Source: a virus. From it: a stretch of 64,000 nucleotides of DNA. Both the position numbers and the translations under genes were made by a program. The notes beneath the pieces are model-generated. The model was given only the letters and a program-made list of their open reading frames with translations. It searched no databases and was not told where the DNA came from. Positions 18,459 to 24,331 of this stretch are shown here, in pieces (the stretch's first letter is position 1; every line of letters begins with the position of its first letter). The stretch is taken from IMG/VR virus record IMGVR_UViG_3300037010_001227, positions 149,190 to 213,189 of that record, one strand, 5' to 3'.

Positions 18459-18800
18459 ATGAAAGTTGAAAGGTGCATTGAAAGAGTCACTATAGGTTAC
18501 AAAAAAAATCGTGGTTCTTAGAATTGCCTAATTTTACTGCTATTATGACTCCATGGAAATCTGAATTAGTTTAGGCAGGAAAATTTGATCAAGTATATCT
18601 TGATCAAGTAAGAGATGATAGTCTTCCAGGTATGCCTCGAAGGAGTTATAGGAAACTCATTTAATGGTGAATATATGTTCAAATATAAGTGTCAGAGATG
18701 GTATGATGCTTTGAAAGAACATTGTAGTGAAAATCAAGGTATTTACAATGTCCTAAAAATAGGAGGATTAAATGAAGACAAGAACAGGCTTTGTAAGTAA
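18459..18800 (+). pseudogene. Frameshifted gene of unknown family
   Basis: Three frames join. The first, from ATG 18459, reads KVERCIERVTIGYKKNRGS. The second reads WFLELPNFTAIMTPWKSELV, a TAG, then AGKFDQVYLDQVRDDSLPGM. The third, open from 18615, reads LEGVIGNSFNGEYMFKYKCQ and on to TAA 18798. The protein-like text on both sides of each break indicates one former gene of about 110 residues. Its end overlaps the first Ser-motif gene. Confidence 0.5.
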
Positions 18801-19410
18801 TAGTTCTTCAAGTTCTTTCATTCTTGACTTTGGAAAGTTTATAACAAAAGCTGAGGATCTGTATCCTTTTATTACAATTCCAAATGAAGATCAAGAACTA
18901 TGGAGAGGTTCTGATTATGTAGAACCAACTATAGAACGAGTAGCAGAATACATGTTTGCTGAAATGAAGCTGGTTAATAAACCTAGGCTTTTAAAACTCT
19001 TGGAACAAGAGTTTGATCCAGAACAGTTTATTGAGACTGAAGAAGAAAAAGACAGGTATGCATGGGCTTGTGATGCTAGATGGAATGCTAGAGATGAACT
19101 CCTCGCCCCATTACTTGATAAATTTGGTCTTAACGGTGAATATGAAATTACTAGAGGACCAATTATAAATCTTCAGATGTTCAACCTCGCGTATGGTCCA
19201 ATTCAACTTCAACTAAATAATATTTTAAAAGAAGCTAATGAAGTTAAAGCTATGATATTAGATAAATACATTCCAATAGCATTAGCTAAAATTGGCGATT
19301 CTGAACATATTTACGAAGCAAAATTTGAAGACCATGACGTGATAGGTAGCATGCTTGAACATGATGGACTATTAGATAAGTTCACTATCATGAGATTTAG
19401 TCACCACTAG
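18772..19410 (+). CDS. GFVSNSSSSSF-motif protein 1
   Basis: A 212-residue protein whose first 19 residues carry the shared motif MKTRTGFVSNSSSSSF. The rest is acidic and mostly helical, with no similarity that I can see to the other members outside the motif. An AGGAGG site precedes ATG 18772. The motif is at the extreme N-terminus and is not a signal peptide, because it lacks a hydrophobic core. It is the first of eight such genes in 5.6 kb, which together flank a radical SAM gene. The role is unknown. The motif is widespread in phage and some bacterial proteins, without an assigned function that I know of. Confidence 0.8.
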   Translation: MKTRTGFVSNSSSSSFILDFGKFITKAEDLYPFITIPNEDQELWRGSDYVEPTIERVAEYMFAEMKLVNKPRLLKLLEQEFDPEQFIETEEEKDRYAWACDARWNARDELLAPLLDKFGLNGEYEITRGPIINLQMFNLAYGPIQLQLNNILKEANEVKAMILDKYIPIALAKIGDSEHIYEAKFEDHDVIGSMLEHDGLLDKFTIMRFSHH

Positions 19411-19737
19411 TGAAAACAAGAACTGGTTTTGTGAGCAATTCAAGCTCAAGTAGTTTTGTTATTACTACAAAAGAACCATTAAGTAAACAACACCTTTTGG
19501 AGTTATTTAAAGTTCCTGTAGAGTCTCCTTTATACTATTTTGTTGAAGAAATGGCAGAATGGTTTGAGCGATATTCTGAACAGGTTACAGTAAAACATGA
19601 GCATTGTTAACAAGAAGTTGATTTACGTTGGTTCTGCTTCAGATGATGCTTATGAAGAAATTGAATTATCTATTTGTTCAATGACTATTAATCATATTAG
19701 TGCCGATTTTTCTATTAAGAAAGATGGTAACTACTAA
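19410..19737 (+). pseudogene. GFVSNSSSSSF-motif protein 2, frameshifted
   Basis: A GTG overlapping the previous stop (TAGTG) opens 66 residues: the motif, then PLSKQHLLELFKVPVESPLY and on to a TAA at 19608. An overlapping frame from ATG 19597 continues KKLIYVGSASDDAYEEIELS and on to a TAA at 19735, which overlaps the next ATG. The two pieces read as one protein of about 108 residues with a single shift near 19600. Either this is a recent frameshift, or the C-terminal half is translated separately from its own ATG. Confidence 0.6.
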
Positions 19738-20150
19738 TGAAGATTCGAAAAGGTTTCGTAAGTAACAGTTCAAGTTCAAGTTTCTGTATTTACGGAACTA
19801 GCGTTGATTCACTAAGTGAAATTACTGGAGTATCAGTACAAGAGATTAATGAGAAACGAAAACAAAAGTTTCTAGAGGGTTACGGGAAGCAGCATCCAGA
19901 GCTAGTTCCACAATCTGATGAAGAATGGCAAGAATACTTTGATGAAGATTGTGACTATGCTGATTATGTCAGCGGAACTGGCTTAGAAATCTACAGTAAG
20001 GATGGTTACGAGTATTACATTGGTAAGTCTTGGCATCTTATTGGAGATGATGAGACTGGTAAAGAGTTTAAAGCTGCTGTTGAGGCTAAGGTTAAAACTC
20101 TTATTCCTAAAGCTAAATGTGAAACTTACTTTGAGGAGTATTACTGCTAA
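19737..20150 (+). CDS. GFVSNSSSSSF-motif protein 3
   Basis: A 137-residue acidic protein starting MKIRKGFVSNSSSSSFCIYG. Its ATG overlaps the previous TAA. The C-terminal half contains YYIGKSWHLIGDDETGKEFK, which is shared with member 4 (VSIGREWRFIGDKETGEEFK). These two are therefore full-length paralogues, not only motif sharers. It ends in CETYFEEYYC. Function unknown. Confidence 0.8.
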   Translation: MKIRKGFVSNSSSSSFCIYGTSVDSLSEITGVSVQEINEKRKQKFLEGYGKQHPELVPQSDEEWQEYFDEDCDYADYVSGTGLEIYSKDGYEYYIGKSWHLIGDDETGKEFKAAVEAKVKTLIPKAKCETYFEEYYC

Positions 20151-20611
20151 TGAAAACCCGTCTTGGTTTTGTCTCGAACTCCAGTAGCTCTTCATTTTGT
20201 ATCTATGGTATTCAGTTTGATTCTTATGACGAAGTTCTTCGTAGTTTACAGAAAAGTGATAAAGAGTTTCTACATGGTTTCTTTGTACAGTTCAACAATA
20301 AATATAAACGTGAATTAGAAGATAATGAAATTGCAGAAGTTACTACAATTGATGAATTAATCAATGCTATAAATGAGCTTGGTTACGATATGTGGGAGTT
20401 TTGCGATGATTTGTTTAAAGATGACAAAATAATACGTGTTCACACAGGTAGTGAATATAATGCTGGTATGGTTTCCATTGGAAGAGAATGGCGCTTTATT
20501 GGAGATAAAGAGACTGGAGAAGAGTTTAAGGAAAGCATTCGTAAACGATTAGAGTATTATTTTGGTAAGAAGCTCAAACTTCAAACTATTGAAGAATCTT
20601 TTCGGTGCTAA
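20150..20611 (+). CDS. GFVSNSSSSSF-motif protein 4
   Basis: A 153-residue protein starting MKTRLGFVSNSSSSSFCIYG, overlapping the previous stop (TAATG). It is paralogous to member 3 over FCIYG and over the IGDxETGxEFK block near residue 115. Its serines use a different codon set from the other copies (TCG, TCC, AGT, AGC, TCT, TCA). The middle part is longer than in member 3. Function unknown. Confidence 0.8.
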   Translation: MKTRLGFVSNSSSSSFCIYGIQFDSYDEVLRSLQKSDKEFLHGFFVQFNNKYKRELEDNEIAEVTTIDELINAINELGYDMWEFCDDLFKDDKIIRVHTGSEYNAGMVSIGREWRFIGDKETGEEFKESIRKRLEYYFGKKLKLQTIEESFRC

Positions 20612-20974
20612 ATGAAAACTCGTTCAGGTTTCGTAAGTAATAGTTCAAGTTCAAGTTTCGTAATTCTTGGTGTGAAAGTAGTTGAAGGTTCCAAAGAGTA
20701 TAACCACATTAAGGAACTTTTCTATGATGTTCCAGCAGATGAGGATAATGGAGTGAGTCCTTGGGAATGGGAACTACCTAACAATGTAAGTTATATTACC
20801 ACTGGTGATAACAATGATCAGACTTACTTCGGTGAGTATCTTGCCCAAGGTGAGTATACGGAATTTGAAGAGTTCAGCTTTAATGATCTAAAGAGAAAAT
20901 CTAAGGAATTAGCTGATCTTCTTGAAGTTCCTGAGTCTGACGTAAGACTTGTAGTAGGAACTGAGTATATCTAG
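20612..20974 (+). CDS. GFVSNSSSSSF-motif protein 5
   Basis: A 120-residue acidic protein starting MKTRSGFVSNSSSSSFVILG right after the previous stop. The rest (Trp-rich middle, then a helix FNDLKRKSKELADLLEVPES) is unlike members 3 and 4. It contains no Cys. A 47-base AT-rich spacer follows. Confidence 0.78.
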   Translation: MKTRSGFVSNSSSSSFVILGVKVVEGSKEYNHIKELFYDVPADEDNGVSPWEWELPNNVSYITTGDNNDQTYFGEYLAQGEYTEFEEFSFNDLKRKSKELADLLEVPESDVRLVVGTEYI

Positions 20975-21021
20975 AGCAATTAGCATTAGTAATTATTAGT
21001 AACTTTATTTTGAGGTTGCTA

Positions 21022-21402
21022 ATGAAAGTGAGAACAGGATTTGTAAGCAACAGTTCAAGTTCTAGCTTTTGTATACTAGGCAGATCTGGAGATCTTTACA
21101 AATTTAAGGACTATATGACTTTTACATTCCCAAATTCTTTTAACGTTAACGACTTAGAAGATGAGGGTGATATTTTAAATGAGATTGTATCGTTAGTAGA
21201 AGATATGACTGGTCTTGATTGTCTGTATGGTTTTGAAAATGAACAATGCTATATTGGTTACTCTTTTTCAAATAGTAATCTTTATGATCGATCTGTAAAT
21301 GAACTGATCAAAGAAGTTGATAACAAGTTTAAGTTACTAAACATTCCACAAGAAGTCTTTGACATTGCTACAACACTTCATTATGGCGAGCTTTACCACT
21401 AA
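21022..21402 (+). CDS. GFVSNSSSSSF-motif protein 6
   Basis: A 126-residue protein. An upstream in-frame TTG (21010) exists, but ATG 21022 places the motif MKVRTGFVSNSSSSSFCILG at the N-terminus as in all other copies, and a TGAGG site precedes it. The remainder is acidic with an alternating hydrophobic pattern. The radical SAM gene starts 28 bases after its stop. Confidence 0.8.
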   Translation: MKVRTGFVSNSSSSSFCILGRSGDLYKFKDYMTFTFPNSFNVNDLEDEGDILNEIVSLVEDMTGLDCLYGFENEQCYIGYSFSNSNLYDRSVNELIKEVDNKFKLLNIPQEVFDIATTLHYGELYH

Positions 21403-21429
21403 ACAAAACTAGGAAACCTAGGAGATAGA

Positions 21430-22512
21430 ATGCTTCATTTTACATCAAAAGAATGGCGGTCAGTTCGTTCAGAAAATTACAATTATGATTTCAATACTGT
21501 CACAGGTTTCTTTGCTCGTTGGGGAGCTACAAAAGAAGAAGATCCCATCGTAGCTCCAGCACCTGAAATCTTGGACCTGGAAGTTAGTTATGGTGGTAAA
21601 TGTTTTGGTAACTGTGCCTTTTGTTATAAAGGGAACGGTGGTGATCAGCCTGTAGTTAATATGACTTTAGATCAGTTCAAAGTTATATTTTCTAAAATGC
21701 CAAAAACTTTGACACAAATTGCTTTCGGTATTATGAATATCTCTACAAATCCTGATTTATTTTCTATGATGGAATACGCAAGAGAGAATGGTGTGGTTCC
21801 AAATTACACCTGTCATGGCCTCGACGTTACTCCTGAAATTGCCAAACGAACTTCAGAGCTTTGTGGGGCGGTCGCAGTATCAGTTTATTCCTCAGAAGCC
21901 TCTTATAACGCGATTAAGATGTTTACTGATGCGGGCATGAAGCAAGTTAATATTCACTTTATGTTAAGTGAAGAAACTTATGAAAGAGCGTTCACTATTT
22001 TACATGATCGTCTAACTGACCCAAGACTTGCTGAAATGAACGCGATTGTATTCCTTGGTTACAAACCAAAGGGTAGAAATGCTGGTGGTTTTCATCCAGT
22101 ATCTACTGAGAAATACAAGAAGTTAATTGAATATTGTAATCGTAACAATATCAGTTATGGTTTTGATTCTTGTTCAGCTCCTGTAGTTCTAAAATGCATT
22201 GAGAACTCTGAAGATTATAAGAGGATTTCACAGTTAGTAGAACCTTGTGAATCTTCTTGTTTCAGTTCTTATATTAATGCAGATGGTATTTTCTACGCCT
22301 GTTCATTTTGCGAGGGCGAAGGTATGTGGAAAGAAGGCATTGATGTTTTAAATTGCAATGATTTTGTTAAGGATGTTTGGCAACATCCTAAAACAGTAGC
22401 ATTTCGAGAAATTTTACATCAGAGTACAAAATCTTGCGGTGCGTGCAAAAGTCAATCTATTTGTAGACATTGTCCAATGTTTCCTGTAACAAATTGCCAC
22501 AATGAGCTATAG
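21430..22512 (+). CDS. Radical SAM protein with SPASM-like C-terminal Cys cluster
   Basis: A 360-residue enzyme. Near residue 57 KCFGNCAFCYKG gives the CxxxCxxC set that holds the 4Fe-4S cluster for cleavage of S-adenosylmethionine. Downstream, GGDQP and the strand-rich middle fit the partial TIM barrel. The C-terminal 90 residues hold at least ten more Cys (CESSC, ACSFC, SCGACKSQSICRHC, NC), like a SPASM or twitch domain that binds auxiliary clusters. Such enzymes often modify peptides or proteins. It lies inside an array of eight proteins with a common N-terminal Ser motif, so those are natural candidate substrates, but this is inference. A strong AGGAG site precedes ATG 21430. Confidence 0.88.
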   Translation: MLHFTSKEWRSVRSENYNYDFNTVTGFFARWGATKEEDPIVAPAPEILDLEVSYGGKCFGNCAFCYKGNGGDQPVVNMTLDQFKVIFSKMPKTLTQIAFGIMNISTNPDLFSMMEYARENGVVPNYTCHGLDVTPEIAKRTSELCGAVAVSVYSSEASYNAIKMFTDAGMKQVNIHFMLSEETYERAFTILHDRLTDPRLAEMNAIVFLGYKPKGRNAGGFHPVSTEKYKKLIEYCNRNNISYGFDSCSAPVVLKCIENSEDYKRISQLVEPCESSCFSSYINADGIFYACSFCEGEGMWKEGIDVLNCNDFVKDVWQHPKTVAFREILHQSTKSCGACKSQSICRHCPMFPVTNCHNEL

Positions 22513-22524
22513 TAGTTGAGTGTT

Positions 22525-22564
22525 CCATGAAAGAGCATATACGGTTAATTATGCTCTTTCATGG
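22525..22564. terminator. Perfect 15-bp stem-loop after the radical SAM gene
   Basis: CCATGAAAGAGCATA (22525-22539) and TATGCTCTTTCATGG (22550-22564) are exact reverse complements around a 10-base loop. It starts 13 bases after the radical SAM stop. There is no T-run, so it may be a terminator of unusual form, a processing site or an operator. Confidence 0.5.
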
Positions 22565-22572
22565 AGACTTGA

Positions 22573-23128
22573 ATGCTTTGCAAACAATGTAATACAGAGT
22601 TTATACAAAATAAACCACATCAAGTATATTGTTCAGAAACGTGCAGAAATTCTTACTGGGGTCATACATAAACAGTATGAAAAAAAATAAAAATAAAATA
22701 GCTAAAAAGAATAATAATGATGAATATAGAAAGTATCAAAAAGAATTAACAAAACAACCATATAGAAAACAAGCAAGAAATGACTATTTAAAAGTAAACG
22801 AAAATCTGACATAGTATTTAAATTAAAACACTCTATAAACGATAGATTACGTCACGAATTTTCTAATTTTAGTGTAGTTGAGTTAGAAAGTTATTTAGGA
22901 TATTCTATTTTAGATTTATCTAATTATTTATTCCAAACAGATGAAGAAAAAGAAGAATATCTTGCTGGTAATTTAGAACTTGACCATATTATACCTTATA
23001 ATTGGTATATAGTTTTAGCGTTAGGTGATGGCGAGTTTAAAAAATGTTGGTCCTTTGAAAATTTACGATTATTATCAAGTATAGACAATAAACAAAGAAG
23101 TAAAAAAATTGATTGTGTTTTTAGTTAA
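22573..23128 (+). pseudogene. Decayed HNH endonuclease
   Basis: ATG 22573 opens LCKQCNTEFIQNKPHQVYCS and on, a zinc-finger-like start, before a TAA. After shifts, another frame from about 22790 runs open to TAA 23126. It carries ELDHIIPYN and KCWSFENLRLLSSIDNKQRS, the central His and Asn positions of an HNH nuclease. At least two frameshifts separate the parts. It is inserted inside the Ser-motif gene array, splitting off its last two members. Confidence 0.72.
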
Positions 23129-23166
23129 ACAACAAAAGATAAGTCATCTTTTACCTATAGGAGCTA

Positions 23167-23501
23167 ATGAAATACGGAAATTGTTCTAAATACTTCGGAA
23201 TTAGTGTTATGTAAACCAAAAAAGAAAAATAGAATTTGATTCTTTTGAGTATAGTGTTATAGAAGCTACTGAAAATATAGCTTATCATAGAATGAAATTT
23301 ATGTTTCAACCAAGCGGTAAAACTACTATAGTCTTATCCTGTTTTGGACAAAGTATTTTAGAACATAAATTTGAAACACCAATTTCTGTTATAATATATT
23401 GGCCTTATAATGGAGTAGGTATATCATCAGAAACTTTTGCCCAAAAAGATATACCAGGAAGAAGAACAGTATATTTTACATCTTGTCATAAGGAGTTATA
23501 A
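23167..23501 (+). pseudogene. Frameshifted small protein gene
   Basis: ATG 23167, behind GGAG, opens KYGNCSKYFGISVM and a stop. The frame then shifts near 23225 to IEFDSFEYSVIEATENIAYH and on without interruption to TAA 23499. The open 3' part still has an ATG at 23292 that would give 69 residues. It ends four bases before the next Ser-motif gene. Unknown family. Confidence 0.5.
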
Positions 23502-23504
23502 ATA

Positions 23505-23879
23505 ATGAAAATTCGAAAAGGTTTCGTAAGTAATAGTTCTTCTTGTAGTTTTACTCTTTACGGAGTATATTTAGATCCAGTAGAAGAAGCAGTTTATGCT
23601 AATCTACAAGATGATATTAAAGCAAGATGTTTAATTGAAGCAGAGAAACGTGGAGGTGATCTAGATTTAGAAGTATTTATAAAAGTTATGTGGGAAGAAT
23701 TTAAAATAGAAGCTACTTGGGGTCAAGATCACTATACTCTCTATTTTGGTTTCAGTATTAACGACATGAAAGATGATGAAACTAAAATACAATTTTATGA
23801 TCGGATTGAAAAGTTTTTTCAAAAGATTTTTAAAGAAGTAAGCTGTGATTGGCATTCAGAAGCATGGTATGACTCTTGA
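23505..23879 (+). CDS. GFVSNSSSCSF-motif protein 7
   Basis: A 124-residue acidic protein starting MKIRKGFVSNSSSCSFTLYG. The fourth Ser of the tract is Cys (TGT), the only departure in the array. The C-terminal half (YTLYFGFSINDMKDDETKIQ) recalls the IGDDETGKEF block of members 3 and 4. Clear AAGGAG ribosome binding site. Function unknown. Confidence 0.78.
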   Translation: MKIRKGFVSNSSSCSFTLYGVYLDPVEEAVYANLQDDIKARCLIEAEKRGGDLDLEVFIKVMWEEFKIEATWGQDHYTLYFGFSINDMKDDETKIQFYDRIEKFFQKIFKEVSCDWHSEAWYDS

Positions 23880-23892
23880 GTAATTAAGTAGT

Positions 23893-24071
23893 ATGACAAC
23901 TAAAATATGTAGTAGTAAATGTAAAGATTTAAAGATTTAACAGATTTTTATTCAAACTCTTATAGATAGTAAAGATTATCATACTAATGTTCATAATAAT
24001 GGAGCATATAAACAATAAATAATGAATTTACTATAGTTTTAAATAATTATATAACTACTTTGGATAATTGA
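23893..24071 (+). pseudogene. Decayed small ORF
   Basis: ATG 23893 gives TTKICSSKCKDLKI, a TAA, then QIFIQTLIDSKDYHTNVHNN, and after a shift NNEFTIVLNNYITTLDN to a TGA that overlaps the next ATG. An 8-base tandem duplication (AAAGATTT twice, near 23930) sits at the first break. Unknown family. Confidence 0.45.
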
Positions 24072-24331
24072 TGAAAACAAGAGCAGGTTTTGTAAGTAAC
24101 AGTTCTAGTTCCAGCTTTGTGTTGGATAAAGATCATCTTTCACCAGAACAAATTGATCAGATTAAGAGACATACCAAACTTGCACAAGATTTTGGTATAG
24201 AACATTGGATGATAGAAGAACGAGAGCATATAATCCTGCTAGAAACTTGGATGGATAACTTTAACATGTCTGAGTTCCTGGAACATATTAAGGTTCCAAC
24301 AGAAGCCATATTACGTCACAACAGAGACTAG
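24071..24331 (+). CDS. GFVSNSSSSSF-motif protein 8
   Basis: An 86-residue protein starting MKTRAGFVSNSSSSSFVLDK. ATG 24071 is preferred over a TTG three bases upstream because it restores the common N-terminus. The rest is His/Glu rich and helical (LSPEQIDQIKRHTKLAQDFG). It is the shortest intact member. The next gene starts one base after its stop. Confidence 0.78.
   Translation: MKTRAGFVSNSSSSSFVLDKDHLSPEQIDQIKRHTKLAQDFGIEHWMIEEREHIILLETWMDNFNMSEFLEHIKVPTEAILRHNRD

Follow-up and report, generated by a model that had tools for sequence, protein, structure and literature searches.

A radical SAM enzyme among unrelated proteins with one shared N-terminal tail points to an undescribed protein-modification system

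Why would eight neighbouring phage genes encode proteins that are nearly identical at their N-termini and then diverge, and why should a radical S-adenosylmethionine (SAM) gene lie among them? Such an array occurs in the 64,000-nucleotide stretch analysed here (the window; positions 149,190 to 213,189 of IMG/VR virus record IMGVR_UViG_3300037010_001227). A first-pass annotation had described eight genes starting MK[T/I/V]RxGFVSNSSS[S/C]SF and, inside their array, a radical SAM gene that carries a second Cys cluster, and had proposed that the constant N-terminus could be a recognition tag for the enzyme or itself the modified site. The genes are indeed there: all eight leader open reading frames (ORFs) were located on the plus strand, flanking the one radical SAM gene (Table 1), and the pattern GFVSNSSSSSF occurs eight times in the window versus 0.09 expected and is confined to this cluster within the 213-kb phage record. 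This combination of enzyme and shared-tag array, which recurs in numerous large phages and in a small number of archaea and bacteria, suggests a protein-tagging or protein-modification system not described so far. We think it probable that this system has two components, with one radical SAM/SPASM-type enzyme modifying the constant tail of many unrelated small acidic proteins.

Linkage between leader and enzyme was examined both ways, with loci picked by the enzyme alone and records of at least 100 kb picked by the motif alone; the locus search patterns favour certain enzyme motifs, and IMG/VR records may be fragments. Among 80 enzyme-picked viral loci, 69 carry the strict leader motif within ~10 kb, and 73 do when variants at G6 and F7 are allowed. 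In four of the remaining seven, leader genes occur outside this range in the same record; the other three are short fragments or lie at contig ends. All nine of the cellular loci found have a leader gene adjoining the enzyme. By comparison, leader genes are absent from all 240 control loci, which were picked by a random 14-mer or by a family-B polymerase motif, the latter added because the former yielded few long contigs (73/80 viral and 9/9 cellular versus 0/240; Fisher p about 1e-64). This co-occurrence beyond expectation, which the first-pass annotation had predicted, holds after clustering at 70% identity (61/65 viral clusters). The enzyme family, phrog_7293, is likewise encoded in 38 of the 44 motif-picked viral records, window included, so the motif does not occur mostly without a radical SAM neighbour, a situation that would have spoken against the original idea. 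In 26 large control records there were no motifs and one weak partial enzyme match. Leader genes lie on the strand of the enzyme in 367 of 369 cases across viral and cellular enzyme loci, with 1–10 per viral locus. Among isolated phages, the enzyme is present in 173 of 50,697 records, nearly all from pseudoteven-like phages; the leader region of RB16 matches 176 such records, a set whose organism breakdown, the sole basis of the comparison, is near-identical to that of the enzyme set.

How constant is the tail? Statistics were drawn from 325 distinct leader proteins from enzyme-bearing loci, collected with a relaxed pattern that preset a start codon at fixed spacing, R4, S or T at positions 11 and 12, and a limited choice at positions 7–12 and 16. 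In this set M1, R4, S11 and S12 are invariant (100%), followed by N10 (99.7%), S9 (98.5%), K2 (98%), F7 (96%, else mostly H or Y), V8 (96%, else I), G6 (95%) and F16 (94%, else Y); within the Ser run, position 14 varies most. Usage is nearly uniform even within the choices that the pattern allowed, and an independent looser pattern agreed. Motif matches found without the start-codon requirement likewise begin MKxRx immediately before GFV. From residue 19 onward conservation drops to ~0.5 bit, save at position 20 (0.9 bit). Each Ser position tested (9, 11, 12, 13 and 15) draws on all six Ser codons, from both the AGY and the TCN boxes, and over residues 6–16 the eight window copies differ on average by 11.25 of 33 nucleotides but by 0.25 of 11 amino acids. 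Since the nucleotides diverge while the amino acids hardly change, and both codon boxes are used, selection must act on the leader protein. Conservation at the DNA level, for example of a regulatory site, is ruled out by the mixed codon boxes and by the roughly one third of bases that differ among the eight copies.

The cellular loci come from Heimdall- and Lokiarchaeota, Thermoplasmata, Izimaplasma, Treponema/Spirochaetia and one further archaeon, whose contig also bears genes read as ribosomal proteins. Across 227 genomes of the Asgard phylum, the ATG-start leader pattern is present in only eight, and the six in which the enzyme match is strong all have the leader (p about 1.6e-10). Cellular enzymes with this G-type leader are interspersed among the phage enzymes in the tree, a pattern consistent with exchange. 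More distant enzymes form a separate sister clade (support 1.0), which pairs with a D-type leader, MK[IVL][RK]xDF[VI][ST]NSS, in Bacillota (L528), Asgard archaea (L509, L540), Spirochaetota (L543) and Alphaproteobacterial plasmids (L535–L538). Leader and enzyme therefore co-vary, and of all the sequence evidence for recognition of the leader by the enzyme, we regard this co-variation of leader type with enzyme clade as the strongest. The same distribution bears on a different idea, in which the tail would be a signal for assembly or targeting (virion packaging, a membrane or a phage compartment) and the radical SAM gene a passenger. Short constant N-termini do serve as targeting signals in phages, as in the capsid-targeting sequences of T4. 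Yet in Asgard archaea, Treponema and plasmids, too, this tail adjoins this enzyme, and tail variants follow the enzyme clades; we consider a targeting role very improbable.

Two of the sister-type arrangements deserve description. At the Asgard locus L540 (genome G232), six D-type leader genes (MKIKxDF[VI]TNSSS) surround the sister-clade radical SAM gene. On the Alphaproteobacterial plasmids (Agrobacterium, Rhizobium and Rhodobacter), the leader/enzyme pair follows a SMEK-domain STAND NTPase matching Avs2 models (E=6e-27), in a putative operon of NTPase, D-type leader and enzyme, with an extra small gene in three of the four. This operon looks like an undescribed defence-type module.

Several points weigh against the proposed pairing or limit how far it can be taken. 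Sister-clade enzymes L507, L510 and L512 have no leader within 13–14 kb. Six motif-positive records of 114–262 kb, possibly fragments, lack phrog_7293. Pseudoteven phages, RB16 and KP15 among them, have their leader genes ~20 kb away from the enzyme. Moreover, where the modification lies and what it is for are our inference. The enzyme-less records are those behind L022, L029, L046, L052, L089 and L110; in that of L110, the motif occurs five times and there are five other radical SAM matches.

What kind of enzyme is this? The window protein has the CxxxCxxC motif and fold of the radical SAM superfamily and, judged from its Cys pattern, the C-terminal auxiliary Fe-S domain of SPASM/twitch proteins, in agreement with the second Cys cluster first noted. 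It matches PF04055 (E=3e-5, but below the curated cut-off) and SPASM (PF13186; E=0.056, below cut-off); the former is well above cut-off in L535 and the latter above cut-off in sister enzymes. In a 67-member enzyme alignment C58, C62 and C65 are invariant, with the spacing of the first two varying in some members, as are C248, C273, C291 and C348. The enzyme appears twitch-like, because one auxiliary cluster looks conserved from sequence. In one locus (L426:9896-10831), the ORF begins with an apparent intein C-terminus (GILTHN then CYKSN), exactly at the active-site Cys motif. Sequence searches found no close relative among characterised enzymes. An AlphaFold2 (AF2) model of high confidence (pLDDT 94.4, pTM 0.92) has a predicted peptide-maturase fold: its best solved matches by Foldseek are TigE, CteB, SkfB and SuiB (TMq up to 0.71), together with the anaerobic sulfatase-maturating enzyme anSME (E about 1e-8). 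The model begins with four short strands; Pfam gives no PqqD match in the window enzyme, although no search specific for the RiPP recognition element (RRE; RiPP, ribosomally synthesised and post-translationally modified peptide) was made.

These structural matches also speak to whether the enzyme might instead be a viperin-like, nucleotide-modifying radical SAM protein with the leader proteins as unrelated neighbours. Similarity to the PADLOC pVip models is weak in the window (E=0.013) and reaches 4e-12 in L535, and viperin appears at rank 13 of the fold matches. However, the top 12 are all peptide or protein maturases, the four invariant auxiliary-cluster cysteines are present, and the association with leader genes would be left unaccounted for. 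To our knowledge, viperins have no auxiliary-cluster cysteines. We give this alternative almost no credence.

Beyond the tail, the leader proteins (median length 133 residues) have little in common. A set of 310 falls into 102 cargo families, with 74 singletons; these ~100 families share only residues 1–18. The first-pass annotation had taken an IGDxETGxEF block, common to leader proteins 3, 4 and perhaps 7, as the mark of a true expanded family. The block does unite these three in one cargo family; the other five are in different families or are singletons. Because the leader alone is common to all eight, the array is not one expanded full-length family, and the block marks only one of ~100. 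For the whole set, a single expanded full-length family is similarly ruled out by the spread over 102 families. Pfam domains were absent from 98 of 100 cargo representatives and weak in the other two, with no sulfatase domain among them. The cargo is strongly acidic, with a median net charge of −9.0 per 100 residues versus −1.0 for conserved same-strand neighbours (p=6e-34), a property reminiscent of nucleic-acid-mimic inhibitors. One family was modelled, the IGDxETG family as represented by leader protein 3 (AF2, pLDDT 88). In this family the tail is predicted to be disordered on a folded domain: residues 1–12 are without structure (pLDDT 55 for block 1–10), a strand starts at residue 13, and a confident folded domain follows, for which no PDB match was found. 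When leaderless cargo homologues were sought, 33 ORFs were flagged; most of those inspected are contig-edge or split fragments or carry G6/F7-substituted leaders, and a few weak matches remain.

No third gene is conserved at the loci. The top neighbour family, in at most 9 of 79 loci, consists of antisense ORFs over the enzyme, and the next is in at most 6. The neighbourhoods thus give no hint of a leader protease, an exporter or a separate recognition protein, and since no third gene is conserved, this is not an ordinary RiPP pathway. It does resemble the RiPP radical SAM/SPASM maturases (SuiB, SkfB, CteB, TigE, ChlB) in predicted fold and in having an enzyme gene beside precursors that share a conserved N-terminal leader. 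Unlike in those systems, the substrates are larger and belong to ~100 unrelated families, the one modelled being a confident folded domain instead of a short core peptide; the tail starts at Met1 with fixed spacing; and no protease for leader removal, exporter or PqqD-like partner is conserved among the neighbour families of the 79 loci. A single NCBIfam match to a darobactin precursor (E=1.7e-4), with no darobactin-like core traced, is treated as chance.

The RiPP likeness nonetheless suggests another role for the tail, as a mere handle that recruits the enzyme to modify residues within each variable cargo. The gene logic, a conserved leader followed by a variable part, is that of RiPPs, and the linkage of leader to enzyme fits equally. 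But no residue past position 18 is common to the cargo, the single modelled cargo is a folded domain, no protease or RRE partner is among the recurring neighbours, and near-invariance over 16 residues, Ser run included, seems more than recognition needs. We therefore hold modification within the cargo to be unlikely.

Our preferred explanation remains modification of the tail itself, and the interpretation that the enzyme modifies the leader proteins is supported by these comparisons of genes and predicted proteins. The enzyme would act in trans on small acidic proteins that are otherwise unrelated, recognising them by the constant tail MK[ITV]RxGFVSNSS[ST]xS[FY], which would be presented as a flexible peptide and dock in the peptide-maturase-type enzyme. 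Since the proteins have nothing in common after residue 18, any shared modification would have to lie in the tail, most likely within V8-S9-N10-S11-S12(-S13); N10-S11-S12 is our first guess because of its near-absolute constancy in both G and D types. The chemistry may be oxidation or crosslinking near these residues, with F7, a position that is almost only aromatic, as a possible crosslink partner. Because no protease gene travels with the system, the tag would be retained on the mature protein, giving acidic proteins with one common modified N-terminus. The phage arrays of variable acidic proteins look like accessory genes, and the tagged proteins may serve phages in host takeover or counter-defence. 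The Avs2-like neighbour suggests that in cells they may be components of conflict modules.

Other known systems share parts of this scheme. The anSME enzymes, too, work in trans: their targets are Ser or Cys residues at a short motif of larger proteins, and their fold matches the model; in contrast, the motif here is N-terminal and Ser-rich, the cargo lacks a sulfatase domain by Pfam, and the window enzyme does not match the anSME model TIGR03942. ProcM, a promiscuous enzyme, acts on the many prochlorosins, which have a constant leader and a diverse downstream part; one enzyme with many constant-leader substrates is common to both, but the chemistry differs and the variable parts here are small proteins, not short peptides. 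A further parallel is offered by the FxSxx peptide/radical SAM-SPASM modules of the VMAP ternary conflict systems, which include a peptidase and have their motif in a C-terminal peptide (PMC7159879). Both combine a radical SAM-SPASM gene with a motif-bearing substrate in a conflict setting, our sister locus lying beside the Avs2-like NTPase; unlike the C-terminal motif and peptidase there, the tail here is N-terminal.

In the PHROG library the leader proteins belong to phrog_7397, which they match chiefly over their first 20–45 residues, and the window enzyme to phrog_7293 (E=3e-98). Both clusters are annotated as of unknown function and are not linked to each other there. In the open-access literature we found neither GFVSNSSSSSF and its shorter variants nor a description of phage modules with this enzyme and leader type (FVTNSSS occurs once, in an unrelated hemp-peptide paper). 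Two phage protein clusters gain a likely partner and a likely role, as do ~100 cargo families, nearly all without a Pfam match. Radical SAM modification, so far a matter of peptides and single protein families, would also come to include a tag shared by many unrelated proteins. The module spans phages, Asgard archaea and bacteria; with this range, and with the sister form beside an Avs2-like NTPase, a role in phage-host conflict is directly testable. It is also quite possible, if slightly less likely than not, that the system is a general radical-based tagging platform in phage-host conflict, with which phages and some archaea and bacteria give a single kind of N-terminal modification to unrelated acidic effectors, a set that is open-ended and evolving, and recruit new cargo by fusion of the 16–18 residue tail. 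If true, this would be a post-translational modification platform with interchangeable cargo.

The predicted N-terminal modification can be tested in the classic E. coli phage RB16. This phage is a better choice than RB43 because the enzyme gene of the RB43 record (L132, 92715-93864) reads as two overlapping pieces, while the RB16 ORF is intact.

Table 1. The leader-protein array and its enzyme in the window
Feature	Coordinates	Strand	Length (aa)	Remarks
Leader protein 1	18772..19410	+	212	singleton cargo; leader MKTRTGFVSNSSSSSF; phrog_7397 match on residues 1-31
Leader protein 2	19410..19610	+	66	GTG start; frame-disrupted member of 12-member cargo family
Leader protein 3	19737..20150	+	137	IGDxETG cargo family, 29 members
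Leader protein 4	20150..20611	+	153	cargo family of members 3 and 7
Leader protein 5	20612..20974	+	120	5-member cargo family
Leader protein 6	21022..21402	+	126	singleton cargo
Radical SAM/twitch-SPASM enzyme	21430..22512	+	360	CxxxCxxC 58/62/65; auxiliary-cluster Cys 248, 273, 291, 348
Leader protein 7	23505..23879	+	124	NSSSCSF leader; cargo family of 3 and 4
Leader protein 8	24071..24331	+	86	MDNFDM cargo family, 28 members

Within the array, the remaining C-terminal family match of leader protein 2 sits in the +1 frame, at 19597-19737; the split (19410-19737) may be a real disruption or a sequencing error. The MDNFDM cargo of leader protein 8 also adjoins the enzyme in Treponema/Spirochaetia.

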